A stretch of 64,000 bases of DNA from Blastopirellula sediminis (GTDB lineage Bacteria; Planctomycetota; Planctomycetia; Pirellulales; Pirellulaceae), in NCBI RefSeq assembly GCF_020966755.1, contig NZ_JAJKFT010000010.1:2630720-2694719 (forward strand), in the 5' to 3' direction. Positions within the stretch are counted from its first letter, which is position 1. The number at the start of each line of letters is the position of its first letter. The notes under the pieces were generated by a model. The model saw nothing but the letters and a program-made list of their open reading frames with translations. It was not told the DNA's origin and ran no database searches. Both the position numbers and the translations under genes were made by a program. Of this stretch, positions 2,607-6,819 are shown piece after piece.

Positions 2607-2978
2607 CTAGGCGGAGTCGTCTGCCGCTCGCTCCAAGTAGGCCTGCAAGATGGCGATATGGCTGTGAGACAAGTCCTTCACGGCGGTAAGCAGCGTGACG
2701 GTTCGATCGCCATACTCCGAGAGAAACTGTCGGACCTGATCGGAATGATCGTTAAGTTCGGCGGTGTATTTTGCGACGAACTGGTCGTAACGCTCAGGAT
2801 CTTCGTGCAGCCATTTGCGGAGATCGTGAGACGGGGTCAGCTCTTTCGCCCAAAGATCAACTTGGGCGTCCGCTTTCGCGACGCCCCGCGGCCAGAGACG
2901 ATCGGCCAGAACCCGCAGGCCGTCTCCCTTGGCAGGCTCATCGTAAATCCGTTTCGTTCGCAGGCGGAAGGTCGCCAT
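2607..2978 (-). CDS. DUF488 domain protein (YeaO-like)
   Basis: A 123-residue protein of the DUF488/YeaO family. The family core is clear: RIYDEP near residue 10, then VLADRLWPRGV, LTPSHDLRKWLHEDP and TVTLLTAVKDLSHSHI. The function is unknown; it is a small cytosolic protein. It is the last gene of a tight four-gene operon, with only two bases between the upstream stop and its ATG. That places it under the NsrR-like regulator and hints at a role in redox or nitrosative stress. The role is inference from context only. Confidence 0.88.
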   Translation of the reverse strand: MATFRLRTKRIYDEPAKGDGLRVLADRLWPRGVAKADAQVDLWAKELTPSHDLRKWLHEDPERYDQFVAKYTAELNDHSDQVRQFLSEYGDRTVTLLTAVKDLSHSHIAILQAYLERAADDSA

Positions 2979-2980
2979 CG

Positions 2981-4282
2981 TTACGACTTCGTATTCCAGA
3001 GATCGGGCTTCGTCTCCGTCAGGATCTCGCGAATATTTTCACGATCCTCCGGCGTTAGATGCGGATAGTCGGGATCGCCGTTTTCGAGGATTTCCTGCAA
3101 GCGGCGAGCGATGTAGCTTTTGGCGGGCGGCGGCAGTTGGTCGAACTGTTCGGAATAGATCAGGTAGCTGCAAGGATAGCGAAACAGCCGCGTTTGCAGA
3201 TCGAGGTCACGCAAGGATCGCTGCTGAGAGTCCTTCGGCCCGGCCGCGGCGAACTCGCGGGCGAACTGGGAGGTTCCCTCCACCTTCGACTCCAGCGGGA
3301 ATTCCTCAGCGAACAACATATACTGCAGCAGCTTGTCGCAGGCATTGGCGATCCGCCGCTTCGTCGTGTCGCTGACGTAATCCTCGGATCGCTCCAGCGC
3401 CTTGTTCATCACCGCATCATGATGCTGCGCCATCCGCGTTTCAAAATTAACGAGCGTCAGAAAGTTTTGCATCTGGGTTTGATGTTCGAGCACCATCAGC
3501 GCGACGATGTCGCTATGCGGCGTCAGGTAGCGAGCGATGTCGAGCCGCTCCGTGAGATCGGTGACGTTGGCGCCGGCTTCGCGATCGATCTTCTCGGGGA
3601 AGTCGCGATCCTTGGAAATGACGTTCCCCATGTGCCGCATCGCGCCATGCGTGCCGGTTACGTACCAACCTCCCCAGCGATCCTGGAACTGACTGCTGTG
3701 ATCGGTGGTGAAGGTGCCAGAGCCATAATGCGGCTGACCGGCCGCGTTGACGAACGCGGAACGGACCAAACCGCCGGGGACGTTTTGCGTGCGGCTCGAA
3801 GCATGGCACGAAAGGCATTGTCCTCGATCCTGGATAAACTTGGGCGAACCATCGGTGTCTTGCGACAGAGTGTAGAAGATGGCGCCTTGCTCTGGGTCGG
3901 TCGTCATCACTTCGAGGACGTCGCCCCCTTGGACCCAGCCGATGTACGACTTGTCGTTGAAGTAGAGGGCACGAGGCCGGCGCGGGGTAATACGGGAAAG
4001 CTGAAAGCTAGTCTTGGAGTAAACCAGCACTTGCGACTCGGGCGAGATGTTCAGCTTCTCAAGGACCGAGTTGAGGTAGCCATGATCTTCGTCATAGTCC
4101 AGCTTGGTCTTCCCGGCGTCGAGCTCTTTTTGCAGCTGTGCGACTGGGTCGTGCTGGAGGTCTTGGCCGTAGTTGATCGGCTCGTTTTCAAACGTCAGCT
4201 GGGCGTGACTTTCAGTCGTCAGCAGTAGAACGATCGCGACGACGGCGGACCAGCGAACGATGCGCAGCGGAAGGGACTTCAT
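2981..4282 (-). CDS. Exported monohaem c-type cytochrome-like protein
   Basis: A 433-residue exported protein: residues 1-28 form a signal peptide (basic start, then VVAIVLLLTTESHAQ). One covalent haem motif, CLSCH, lies at residues 156-160. It is followed by a conserved-looking stretch with SSRTQNVPGG, RWGGWYVTGTHG and RHMGN, where His or Met could supply the second haem ligand. No second CxxCH exists. The C-terminal half is helical with no known domain. I do not recognise a named enzyme. It sits two bases from each neighbour in an operon with a DUF3365 haem protein, so an electron-transfer or haem-based sensing pair in the periplasm is plausible. Confidence 0.75.
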   Translation of the reverse strand: MKSLPLRIVRWSAVVAIVLLLTTESHAQLTFENEPINYGQDLQHDPVAQLQKELDAGKTKLDYDEDHGYLNSVLEKLNISPESQVLVYSKTSFQLSRITPRRPRALYFNDKSYIGWVQGGDVLEVMTTDPEQGAIFYTLSQDTDGSPKFIQDRGQCLSCHASSRTQNVPGGLVRSAFVNAAGQPHYGSGTFTTDHSSQFQDRWGGWYVTGTHGAMRHMGNVISKDRDFPEKIDREAGANVTDLTERLDIARYLTPHSDIVALMVLEHQTQMQNFLTLVNFETRMAQHHDAVMNKALERSEDYVSDTTKRRIANACDKLLQYMLFAEEFPLESKVEGTSQFAREFAAAGPKDSQQRSLRDLDLQTRLFRYPCSYLIYSEQFDQLPPPAKSYIARRLQEILENGDPDYPHLTPEDRENIREILTETKPDLWNTKS

Positions 4283-4284
4283 GA

Positions 4285-4812
4285 TTACTTCTCCTCAGCG
4301 ATCGGCATCGAAATGACGAGCCCGGCGATGCGGCTCTCGGTGCTCTTGCGATTGGGGACATGGCACTTCAAGCAGCGGGAGGCGAGCCGAATCGCTCCGG
4401 CATATTGGTAGCGACCATTGTCGACGGAGTCATGTTCCGGCTTTCCTTCGGCAAGCTCTTTCGCAGCGAGCTTTTCAAAAGGACTTTTCGGCTCGTTGTC
4501 GATGTTCATCGCGTTCGTATTGACCGAAATCCAACGGATTTTGACATGATGGCTGCGCTCCAGCTCGGCGAAGACGTCTTCCAGCGATCGAGACGGAATC
4601 GCATGCGACTCTTCTTCGTCAAAGAAGTCGCGATGCATTACTTGAAGCGTGCCATGCAGCGTCTCATGCAAGAGTCGCGCTCGACTGCGGGCTTCTTCGA
4701 TTCGAACCGGCGGAGCAGGGGAGGCTTGCTCGGAACTCTCGTCGGCGATCGTAGCCGCGGCGAGACCGGCGATCGACAGGAGCAGAGCGAGAACAATGGG
4801 GGCTCGATTCAT
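4285..4812 (-). CDS. DUF3365 (Tll0287-like) exported haem protein
   Basis: A 175-residue protein with an N-terminal signal peptide (MNRAPIVLALLLSIAGLAAA). It has one c-type haem motif near the C terminus (CLKCH), preceded by GAIRLASR and followed by a short segment ending LVISMPIAEE. This arrangement, with ARLLHETLHGTLQVMHRDFF near residue 50, fits the DUF3365/Tll0287-like family, often a periplasmic haem sensor domain of larger kinases but here standing alone. It overlaps the regulator gene by four bases (ATGA) and precedes the cytochrome gene by two bases. I infer a periplasmic redox or gas-sensing role; the ligand is unknown. Confidence 0.82.
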   Translation of the reverse strand: MNRAPIVLALLLSIAGLAAATIADESSEQASPAPPVRIEEARSRARLLHETLHGTLQVMHRDFFDEEESHAIPSRSLEDVFAELERSHHVKIRWISVNTNAMNIDNEPKSPFEKLAAKELAEGKPEHDSVDNGRYQYAGAIRLASRCLKCHVPNRKSTESRIAGLVISMPIAEEK

Positions 4813-5240
4813 CGTCGTGCTCCGAAAGCGACAAGTTGACGAGCGCCAGGAACGACGTCGGCCAGGGTGACGCCGTCGAGATAACTGCGCTGCACCCGTT
4901 CCGCTTCGGCCAGCACTCCTTTGAGTTTGCAGAATGATTGAATGGCGCAGACCTCTTCGTCGGTATCGATACAGTCAAGCAGGTGCATGCTTCCCTCAAA
5001 CCGCTCGATGATTTCGCCAATCGAAATCGTCTCCGGCTTGCGGGCCAGTTCGATGCCGCCGCCGACACCGCGGACGCTCCGAACGTAACCATACTTGGCG
5101 AGCAAATTGACCACCTTCGCCACGTGGTGGACCGAAATGTCGAACAACTGCGCCACGTCGGCGACGTTGGCGCGCTCGCCGCGCCTGGCGAGAAACATCA
5201 GCGTTCGCAGGGCGTAATCGGTTTGCGTCGTCAGTTTCAT
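4809..5240 (-). CDS. Rrf2-family transcriptional regulator, NsrR-like
   Basis: A 143-residue Rrf2 regulator. The N-terminal winged helix is typical (MKLTTQTDYALRTLMFLARR, then GYVRSVRGVGGGIELA). Three cysteines at residues 90, 98 and 104 can bind an iron-sulfur cluster; NsrR proteins use CX5CX5C, while this one has CX7CX5C. The family senses nitric oxide or redox state and represses detoxification genes. The gene is first in the operon with the DUF3365, cytochrome and DUF488 genes. A perfect inverted repeat lies 20 bases upstream of the ATG, suggesting autoregulation. NO sensing is inference; IscR-like or other Rrf2 functions are possible. Confidence 0.88.
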   Translation of the reverse strand: MKLTTQTDYALRTLMFLARRGERANVADVAQLFDISVHHVAKVVNLLAKYGYVRSVRGVGGGIELARKPETISIGEIIERFEGSMHLLDCIDTDEEVCAIQSFCKLKGVLAEAERVQRSYLDGVTLADVVPGARQLVAFGARR

Positions 5241-5259
5241 CGGCCCAAACGCCTAAAGG

Positions 5260-5283
5260 TGTAAAAGCGGTGCATCTTTTACA
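5260..5283 (-). promoter_or_regulatory. Perfect inverted repeat, probable Rrf2 operator
   Basis: TGTAAAAG, eight bases, then CTTTTACA: a perfect 8+8 palindrome of 24 bases, centred about 31 bases before the regulator's ATG. Read on the coding strand it contains AAGATGCA, which resembles an NsrR half-site. Size and position fit a dimeric winged-helix repressor controlling its own operon. Confidence 0.65.
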
Positions 5284-5331
5284 GGAATAGCCGATCGCCG
5301 CGACGAAGTCAAGTTGGGCGGCACATCGGAA

Positions 5332-6810
5332 CTAGCGCCAAACGGCATCCCGTTCGAACGGATACATCCCGCTGCGGCGATGCGCATATTGCAGTCGCGA
5401 GAGATTCGCGGTCGTCACCCCCGGCGTATCGACCCGGAAGAATTGGGGGCAAACGGCGGCGTAGGCGGCCAGCGGCGCGTTGACCCCTTTGGCGACGATG
5501 ATCTGAAAATCGGTCGGCGCCAGGTTGCAATAGGTCAATTGTCGCAGCGACCAGGGCGCGGTTCGCTCGGACGTGAGTTGGAGCGTGAGCCCGCTCTTGG
5601 TTCGCACGATCGCGGTTGGTCCCATGTCGTATTCCGTCTTCCCGCCATGCCGCGGCTTTTCTTCGGCGAACCGACCTTCGTGGAGCGAAATGACCTGGCA
5701 TGTGACTCGTAACGGATCGCCATGCAAGCGATCGAGCTTGGCGCCGATTTCGAGTGCAACCGTCTGGCCGACGCCTGCCGCTGTCGCCGCAGCGACCGCT
5801 TCCGGATCGCAGATCGCGACGAAGGCTCGCTCAACGTTGCGATCGACCAGCGCTTGAGCGATCGTCGTTCCATCCGCCGGCGAACCGGCGCCGACGTTGT
5901 CTCCCATGTCGAGCAGGCAGACCGGACCTTCACAGGCCAGCGCCTTATCGATCGCCTCATGAACGCTCAAGAACGTACCGAGCGTCCTCTCGCGATCGTC
6001 CCACATCTTGTGCGCTAACTCGTCGGCCGTACTGGCGGCCAGCGCCGCGTCTCCGTCGGCGATGCAGAGCATGGCCGTACCCATCTCGGCGACGTCGGAA
6101 TAAGGAAAGCCGTAGAAGAGGCTCGCGCCGAGAATACCGGGTCGCTGGCGCACTTCCTCGACCCACGCTGCATATTCGCGGCAAGGTTGCTCTTCCGAGC
6201 ATTGCCGTTCGATATTGATCGCCAGCGGCGGAAAGGAGGCCGCTTGTCGCGGACGAACTTCCCCTCGTAACGTGCGAGCCATCAGCAGTGCCGCTTCTCG
6301 TCCCCGGTCGGCCTGATCGACATGCGGGTTCGTGCGGTAAGCGAAGAGTGCGTCAGTCGCTTTGACCATCTGCGGCGAAAGGTTGGCATGGGGATCGAGC
6401 GTGCCGATGATCGGCTTGTCGGGGCCGAACGCTTCGCGCACCGCTTGCATCCAGTAACCGTCGGCGTCGGGATGATTTTCGGCGACCGTCGCGCCATGCG
6501 GTGCGATCAACAAACCGTCGAGCGGCTGATGATGTTCCAAGTGATCGAGCATGCACTCGACCAGTTCATCGAACGTATCAGCCGTAATCACTCCGCTCGG
6601 CAAGGCGCGCGCTGCGAAGACGCCGACCGGTTCGATGCCGGCGTCGCGCAGGCCGGTAATGAAGCCGCCGATTTCGTGATGGGCCGTTTCAAAATGAGGC
6701 AGGATCTCGTGGCCAACCAGCAGAACGTCGCGGCGGAAGTTGTCGAGCGTCGTCGGCGCAGTGACGAACGTGTTCGATTCATGCAGCAGCGAGATGATGC
6801 CGACGCGCAT
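5332..6810 (-). CDS. M81 family metallopeptidase (MlrC-like)
   Basis: A 492-residue protein of the MlrC/M81 family, named after the microcystinase that degrades linear D-amino-acid-containing peptides. The N terminus (MRVGIISLLHESNTF) is diagnostic. Probable zinc ligands lie in APHGA, GTLDPHAN and RTNPHVD; the C-terminal MlrC domain follows from about residue 300 (VCLLDMGDNVGAGSPADGT). I prefer the ATG behind AGGAGTTGGAA over a TTG two codons upstream. It is nine bases downstream of ridA and probably co-transcribed. No signal peptide is seen, so it is cytosolic. Most family members have unknown peptide or amide substrates. Confidence 0.88.
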   Translation of the reverse strand: MRVGIISLLHESNTFVTAPTTLDNFRRDVLLVGHEILPHFETAHHEIGGFITGLRDAGIEPVGVFAARALPSGVITADTFDELVECMLDHLEHHQPLDGLLIAPHGATVAENHPDADGYWMQAVREAFGPDKPIIGTLDPHANLSPQMVKATDALFAYRTNPHVDQADRGREAALLMARTLRGEVRPRQAASFPPLAINIERQCSEEQPCREYAAWVEEVRQRPGILGASLFYGFPYSDVAEMGTAMLCIADGDAALAASTADELAHKMWDDRERTLGTFLSVHEAIDKALACEGPVCLLDMGDNVGAGSPADGTTIAQALVDRNVERAFVAICDPEAVAAATAAGVGQTVALEIGAKLDRLHGDPLRVTCQVISLHEGRFAEEKPRHGGKTEYDMGPTAIVRTKSGLTLQLTSERTAPWSLRQLTYCNLAPTDFQIIVAKGVNAPLAAYAAVCPQFFRVDTPGVTTANLSRLQYAHRRSGMYPFERDAVWR

Positions 6811-6819
6811 TTCCAACTC

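Follow-up and report, generated by a model that had tools for sequence, protein, structure and literature searches.

Cytochrome c' and cytochrome P460 are periplasmic cytochromes that bind nitric oxide (NO). Two other groups of described systems, the NsrR regulons of E. coli and S. coelicolor (PMC1274295) and the haem-binding DUF3365 proteins, a family that includes Tll0287 and was renamed sCache_heme in a 2026 preprint (PMC12889525), come closest to the locus considered here. This locus is an operon at positions 2607-5283 of a stretch of Blastopirellula sediminis DNA of 64,000 nt (the window). Its four open reading frames (ORFs), all on the minus strand, encode in order of transcription an Rrf2 regulator, a DUF3365 protein, a monohaem c-type protein that we label "CytP2" for the present work only, and a DUF488 protein (Table 1). 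Our data suggest, with moderate confidence, that this is an autoregulated, NO-derepressed operon of NsrR type that exports two haem c proteins for NO handling in the periplasm.

Like the NsrR regulons, as far as the accessible part of PMC1274295 describes them, the operon combines an Rrf2 repressor bearing a cysteine triad and Asp8 with an AAGATGYAT-N5-ATRCATCTT-type operator at its own promoter, and some relatives of CytP2 and of the regulator adjoin flavohaemoglobin, norB, nnrS or ytfE-like genes. However, its targets would be a DUF488 protein and two proteins of haem c type, none of them among the targets given in that part of the source. The DUF3365 protein resembles sCache_heme/Tll0287 proteins in its PF11845 match, its CXXCH motif and a Cache-like fold with 5b82 as top match, but it is paired with an NsrR-like regulator in an operon and offers no candidate for an axial Cys. 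CytP2 has in common with cytochrome c' and P460 a single haem c motif, a leader and an NO-linked genomic setting, whereas it lacks any significant PDB match by sequence or by Foldseek and carries its haem motif at residues 156-160 of 433. The DUF488 protein exceeds the cut-off of the DUF488-N3i profile (PF22752), and differs in that this member lies in an NO-type operon.

Regulation of the operon by the NsrR-like protein is well supported from sequence. The first-pass annotation of the window had proposed such a regulator, and the assignment holds: among proteins of solved structure S. coelicolor NsrR is the closest (E 5e-16), and among NCBIfam models, after the general Rrf2 superfamily model, NsrR is the top specific one (104.3 bits, against 82 for RirA, 73 for the SUF regulator and 64 for IscR). 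The protein carries Asp8 and Cys90/98/104, which we take to be the ligands of an iron-sulfur (Fe-S) cluster; its C-x7-C-x5-C spacing differs from the x5/x5 of S. coelicolor NsrR. Orthologues (E 1e-25 or better) occur in 46 of 196 genomes, one each; here and below, genome counts are out of 196 and include the B. sediminis genome itself. The 46 loci inspected comprise the window, five CytP2 loci and 40 others. A loose form of the Cys triad is present in all 46 orthologues and a stricter form in 39, 37 of them spaced x6/x5, and the Asp is present in 45 (two of them by eye), the remaining ORF being truncated.

The sequence ahead of the operon is consistent with NsrR-type autoregulation. A perfect inverted repeat had been noted there previously and lies at 5260-5283; the operator-like site that overlaps it, at 5256-5278, had not been named. 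The accessible texts describe the NsrR sites of E. coli as inverted repeats in an 11-1-11 arrangement, of the AAGATGCATTT kind (PMC5320621), and gATGyAT-N5-ATrCATc as a motif derived for many bacteria (PMC1274295). Scored with the core AAGATGYA-N7-TRCATCTT, which omits two consensus positions where the window site deviates, 5256-5278 outscores every other site of the 7.05-Mb genome and alone has at most one mismatch. With the fuller AAGATGYAT-N5-ATRCATCTT, four sites in the genome, this one included, tie at three mismatches; none is better, and the reversed control gave none. By either scoring, it is very improbable, at an estimated 1 in 10,000 or less, that a site of this quality should fall by chance within 40 bases of an nsrR-like start. 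Furthermore, gATGyAT-N5-ATrCATc occurs with at most three mismatches upstream of 14 of the 46 orthologues (resampled mean 0.43, largest 3) and with at most two upstream of eight (resampled mean 0.02).

The inverted repeat, TGTAAAAG-N8-CTTTTACA, is the sole site in the window at one mismatch or fewer (0 in 100 shuffles) and the sole zero-mismatch copy in the genome; a repeat listing made over a larger region did not include it. Its nearest other copy (C9:26588, one mismatch) adjoins DUF1501- and Usp-like genes, as judged by eye, with no link to NO, and was set aside. The idea of a wide NsrR regulon was likewise rejected: at three mismatches or fewer the core gives 74 sites in the genome versus 64 for its reversed control, with no clear excess, so the regulon may be small. 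The operator form of this genus has no further copy in the genome. TTGAC, the start of the candidate promoter, is found upstream of 36 of the 46 orthologous nsrR genes (resampled mean 4.9, largest 11), at varying distance, and a few of these matches are too near the start or within coding sequence and thus are not promoters. A sigma-70 consensus scan gave no match by its own rule.

Table 1. Features of the operon and its control region (positions in the window)
Feature	Position	Strand	Details
DUF488-N3i ("inactive" subclade)	2607-2978	-	123 aa; PF22752, 119.9 bits (cut-off 27)
"CytP2" monohaem c-type protein	2981-4282	-	433 aa; uncharacterised family; CLSCH at 156-160
Stand-alone haem-Cache protein (DUF3365 / Tll0287-like / sCache_heme)	4285-4812	-	175 aa; PF11845, 38.7 bits (cut-off 24.1)
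NsrR-like Rrf2 repressor	4809-5240	-	143 aa; PF02082, 124.8 bits (cut-off 30)
NsrR-type operator (putative)	5256-5278		AAGATGCACCGCTTTTACACCTT (minus strand); match to published NsrR consensus
Perfect inverted repeat	5260-5283		TGTAAAAG-N8-CTTTTACA; overlaps NsrR-type operator
Candidate promoter	5284-5312	-	TTGACT-N17-TATTCC; abuts operator

The gene calls agree with the compact arrangement first described for the operon, with a 4-base overlap between the Rrf2 and DUF3365 ORFs and gaps of 2 bases at each of the two following junctions. The earlier view of the middle genes as encoding two exported haem-c-type proteins is also supported, since each product has one CXXCH (CLKCH in the DUF3365 protein) and, by eye, a hydrophobic N-terminal leader, which the DUF488 protein does not have. 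Among the 46 NsrR loci, a DUF3365 gene directly follows on the same strand within 400 bases in 34, and CytP2 lies within 1.5 kb in seven. The conserved core is the NsrR-DUF3365 pair; the monohaem protein forms a separate, second module whose own neighbourhoods are NO-linked, and DUF488 is a minority partner. Two DUF3365 sequence types occur behind NsrR, a "VVLITTHYVN"-like type (31 of 34) and a "LQVMHRDFFD"-like type (3 of 34) that corresponds to the window genus. Both types stand in a row at locus L035, where the second ("LQVMHRDFFD"-like) adjoins CytP2, and clusters of two or three DUF3365 paralogues of differing type lie behind or near NsrR at L035, L253 and L284. A sulfite/nitrite reductase-like gene lies within 0.9 kb of NsrR at L247, L256 and L265, with a Pfam check for L265 only.

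CytP2 is present in 129 of the genomes, and its neighbourhoods were compared at 151 loci (161 minus 10 near-duplicates). In these, the sequences show conserved linkage with Rrf2 regulators, both NsrR-type and others, and a minority of the loci are also linked to genes for NO defence. An Rrf2 gene lies within 1.5 kb in 47 of the 151 loci and at 1.5-3 kb in three (49 loci together), and at 3-8 kb in none, with about 900 kb searched at that distance versus 434 kb near the gene. DUF3365 is near CytP2 in 16 loci, at 1.5-3 kb in one and at 4.5-6 kb in two; quinol-type NorB is near in seven loci and none beyond, and protoglobin in eight with one more at 3-4.5 kb. Members of a globin cluster are near in five loci and absent further out; FAD and NAD domains identify four of them as flavohaemoglobins (Pfam), and the one at L132 is a shorter ORF with a globin match. 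NnrS occurs within 2.6 kb in four loci (two Pfam-checked), and RIC/YtfE-like genes within 3.2 kb in three (one at 3.1 kb; the other two Pfam-checked, one of these by its hemerythrin domain alone), with none of either further out there. A known NO-response gene thus lies within 3 kb in 21 of the 151 loci, and at least one of five partner families (Rrf2, NorB, protoglobin, flavohaemoglobin or DUF3365) within 3 kb in 57, or 59 when NnrS and RIC are added. At L061, a tandem pair of CytP2 genes adjoins a flavohaemoglobin gene.

The Rrf2 proteins beside CytP2 are of more than one kind: NsrR-like at six loci, 42 proteins with a CPLG...LCPLH pattern, and three that are unclassified. Genes of the CPLG...LCPLH kind, which has that pattern in place of the NsrR triad (L038-L190), lie mostly upstream of CytP2 and are usually divergent from it. 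A perfect palindrome with 6-bp arms occurs in 17 of 40 of their upstream regions (resampled mean 3.5, largest 7), several taking the form CTGCAC-N6-GTGCAG or TTGGAT-N5-ATCCAA by eye, and these regulators could be a group, as yet without a name, that senses NO or redox state. A quick tree built from 119 CytP2 proteins requires 20 changes in the Rrf2 label, and well-supported branches force no fewer than 13 of them, which suggests that the Rrf2 linkage was gained or lost many times.

DUF3365 had been regarded at first as usually a sensor domain; this needs correction, as nearly half of sCache_heme proteins stand alone according to the accessible text of PMC12889525. The model of the window protein (mean pLDDT 74.5, with low values near the haem motif) has the Tll0287 structure 5b82 as its top Foldseek match (E 3.5e-4; 12% identity in the structural alignment), with CXXCH between beta-strands of the Cache fold; no PDB sequence relatives of this DUF3365 group were found beyond chance level. 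The axial Cys outside CXXCH that is seen in Tll0287 and in a P. putida protein is missing here: the window protein has no Cys besides those of CXXCH and hence no axial Cys of the Tll0287 subgroup, and none of 42 DUF3365 proteins at NsrR loci has one, 41 of them, from outside the window, examined from 115 residues before CXXCH onward. A signalling sCache_heme member without axial Cys releases NO slowly, and neither NsrR nor words in Planctomyc- appear, in the accessible text of PMC12889525. The B. sediminis genome has a second DUF3365 gene outside the window (L001, G000:C10:3210799-3214266), whose product has a lipoprotein-like leader by eye; it follows a multihaem cytochrome frame and precedes the only PF00042 globin gene of the genome (141 aa). 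NsrR control of this second gene was considered and rejected, as L001 has no motif under five mismatches.

Neither Pfam nor NCBIfam gave a match to CytP2 up to E 0.1. A scan of GTDB species genomes gave at least 536 relatives; the best 80, which were kept, are mainly from Planctomycetota and also include Acidobacteriota, Verrucomicrobiota and one Hydrogenedentota record. All 81 aligned sequences share C156, C159, H160 and H217, and 79 have H267. Its AF2 model is confident (pLDDT 94.0, pTM 0.91), and neither a significant PDB match (Foldseek best E 0.4) nor a BFVD viral model (best E 0.19) was found for the fold; PDB sequence searches likewise gave nothing significant. Known folds and known cytochrome c families were thus set aside for CytP2, for which nothing significant emerged by sequence or structure with methods that can miss distant relatives, although a lack of fold matches is no proof of a new fold. 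Homology to the haem-Cache protein was also rejected, as a profile-profile comparison could align no more than 13 residues, around CXXCH. In the literature searched, which included few subscription papers and offers no name by which to find CytP2, neither this protein nor an NsrR-DUF3365 operon was described, and titles and abstract openings on NsrR in Planctomycetes held nothing evidently on this subject.

DUF488 genes (E 1e-25 or better) occur at 19 places in 18 genomes. Among the 15 places viewed, seven, three of them in this genus, lie within about 7 kb of NsrR, another Rrf2, NorB, DUF3365 or flavohaemoglobin. Flavohaemoglobin, cupin and DUF488 genes stand in a row at L253, and at L256 DUF488 adjoins the sulfite/nitrite reductase-like gene. 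The order of all four genes was proposed for checking in other genomes, and it is not unique to the strain: three of the four genomes of the genus keep it, namely the B. sediminis genome, G002 (L033) and G003 (L034), with the first two genes about 88 bases apart and not overlapping in the latter two. It is missing from G001 (L032). There CytP2 is kept, the Rrf2, DUF3365 and DUF488 genes are gone from the locus, and the upstream MlrC-like frame is 131 aa rather than about 494 aa, as if from one deletion.

These observations can be arranged in a simple scheme. The Fe-S form of the NsrR-like protein would bind 5256-5278 just downstream of the promoter and repress its own operon; NO would nitrosylate the cluster and lift repression; the derepressed cell would export the haem-Cache protein and CytP2, which, in the periplasm, may bind NO or its products or convert them chemically; and DUF488 would act in the cytosol. 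The redox or NO response suggested by the first-pass annotation gains on its NO side from the gene neighbourhoods and the operator, both read from sequence, and the NO chemistry remains presumptive. We infer an NO response in this organism, together with the Fe-S cluster, haem attachment and export, and, with less confidence, we infer that CytP2 is an NO-handling effector (a trap, reductase or oxidase), not an electron carrier. A bolder extension, which we hold only tentatively, is that CytP2 represents a new class of periplasmic monohaem NO detoxifier (reductase, oxidase or high-capacity trap) with its own fold, acting in Planctomycetota and Acidobacteriota alongside or in place of flavohaemoglobin or NO reductase, with the NsrR-linked haem-Cache protein as its NO-binding partner. 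If so, these phyla would meet NO outside the cytoplasmic membrane under the control of a cytosolic NsrR.

Several results weigh against an NO-derepressed operon for periplasmic NO handling. The regulator does not reach the cut-off of the NCBIfam NsrR equivalog (NF008240, 182 versus 104.3 bits), and we therefore call it NsrR-like and not an NsrR equivalog. The window site has three mismatches to gATGyAT-N5-ATrCATc (resampled P 0.0085), 32 of the 46 orthologues lack this motif at three mismatches, perhaps partly because starts are misplaced, and L035, of the nearest group, has it only at five. NorB lies within 8 kb of NsrR in just two of the 46 loci. At 94 of the 151 CytP2 loci, all five partner families are missing within 3 kb, and CytP2 occurs in 37 of the 48 genomes with NorB versus 92 of the 148 others, which is no significant association (Fisher p 0.08); an obligate pairing of CytP2 with NO reductase is rejected by these genome-level counts. 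The linkage of DUF488 to the operon partners is a minority one and loose. In the accessible text of PMC12889525, a stand-alone DUF3365 protein with axial Cys binds NO weakly, and its Cys-to-Ala variant is also weak and loses NO fast; a missing Cys by itself is therefore no predictor of NO binding.

Some observations would fit a mostly lineage-specific neighbourhood, in which a regulator and three unrelated genes were kept together in one genus: the complete order is found in a single genus, one of whose genomes lacks three of the four genes at the locus, and eight of the 15 DUF488 places viewed have none of the families looked for nearby. However, the pairwise linkages recur far beyond the genus in distance-controlled comparisons, and in another family of the order (L101) NsrR, DUF488 and CytP2 are again adjacent, in rearranged order and with NorB close by, so that we regard this explanation as very improbable. 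Iron or cluster status is sensed by Rrf2 proteins whose cysteines are similarly arranged, and the RirA, SUF-regulator and IscR models also match the regulator, as would be expected if it sensed iron, Fe-S status or general redox stress in the manner of IscR or RirA and the operon were a general redox or haem-stress response. With NsrR as the top specific model, Asp8 and an NsrR-type operator in place, and no Isc/Suf or iron-uptake gene among the annotated recurrent neighbours, such a role seems improbable.

Alternatively, the operon may be regulated by NO or nitrite and both haem proteins may be electron carriers for another periplasmic reductase, for example NrfA. The B. sediminis genome has an NrfA-like gene, the stand-alone DUF3365 protein is redox-like with or without its axial Cys in the accessible part of PMC12889525, and invariant H217 beside the CXXCH His160 of CytP2 would suit bis-His ligation. 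Against this, the operon holds no reductase gene, the Tll0287-type axial Cys is missing from all 42 NsrR-linked DUF3365 proteins, and some CytP2 genes adjoin flavohaemoglobin or protoglobin genes. We know of no need for a periplasmic electron donor in either of these globins, and electron carriage, though it deserves serious weight, appears unlikely to be the role of both proteins.

A function in periplasmic NO handling would matter beyond this locus. CytP2, carried by roughly two in three of the genomes examined, is a common protein with no Pfam or NCBIfam profile and no Foldseek relative, and its partly NO-linked neighbourhoods give it a testable function. The operon also provides stand-alone haem-Cache proteins with a defined regulatory setting, of value in deciding between sensing, electron carriage and gas trapping as their role. 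In addition, it may reveal how NO is met by organisms that have neither a quinol-type NO reductase nor flavohaemoglobin. Quinol-type NorB was not found in the B. sediminis genome, in which cytochrome-c-type NO reductase was not searched for, and one PF00042 globin was found, other globin families not having been searched.

Carriage of the operon on plasmids was considered and set aside, as a plasmid collection gave no match. Upstream, an M81/MlrC-like metallopeptidase gene lies on the same strand at 5332-6816, 91 bases from the operon, and transcription may read through from it into the operon. Past the 3' end, on the same strand, Pfam identifies a TPR protein (752-2113) and a DUF4291 protein (110-712).

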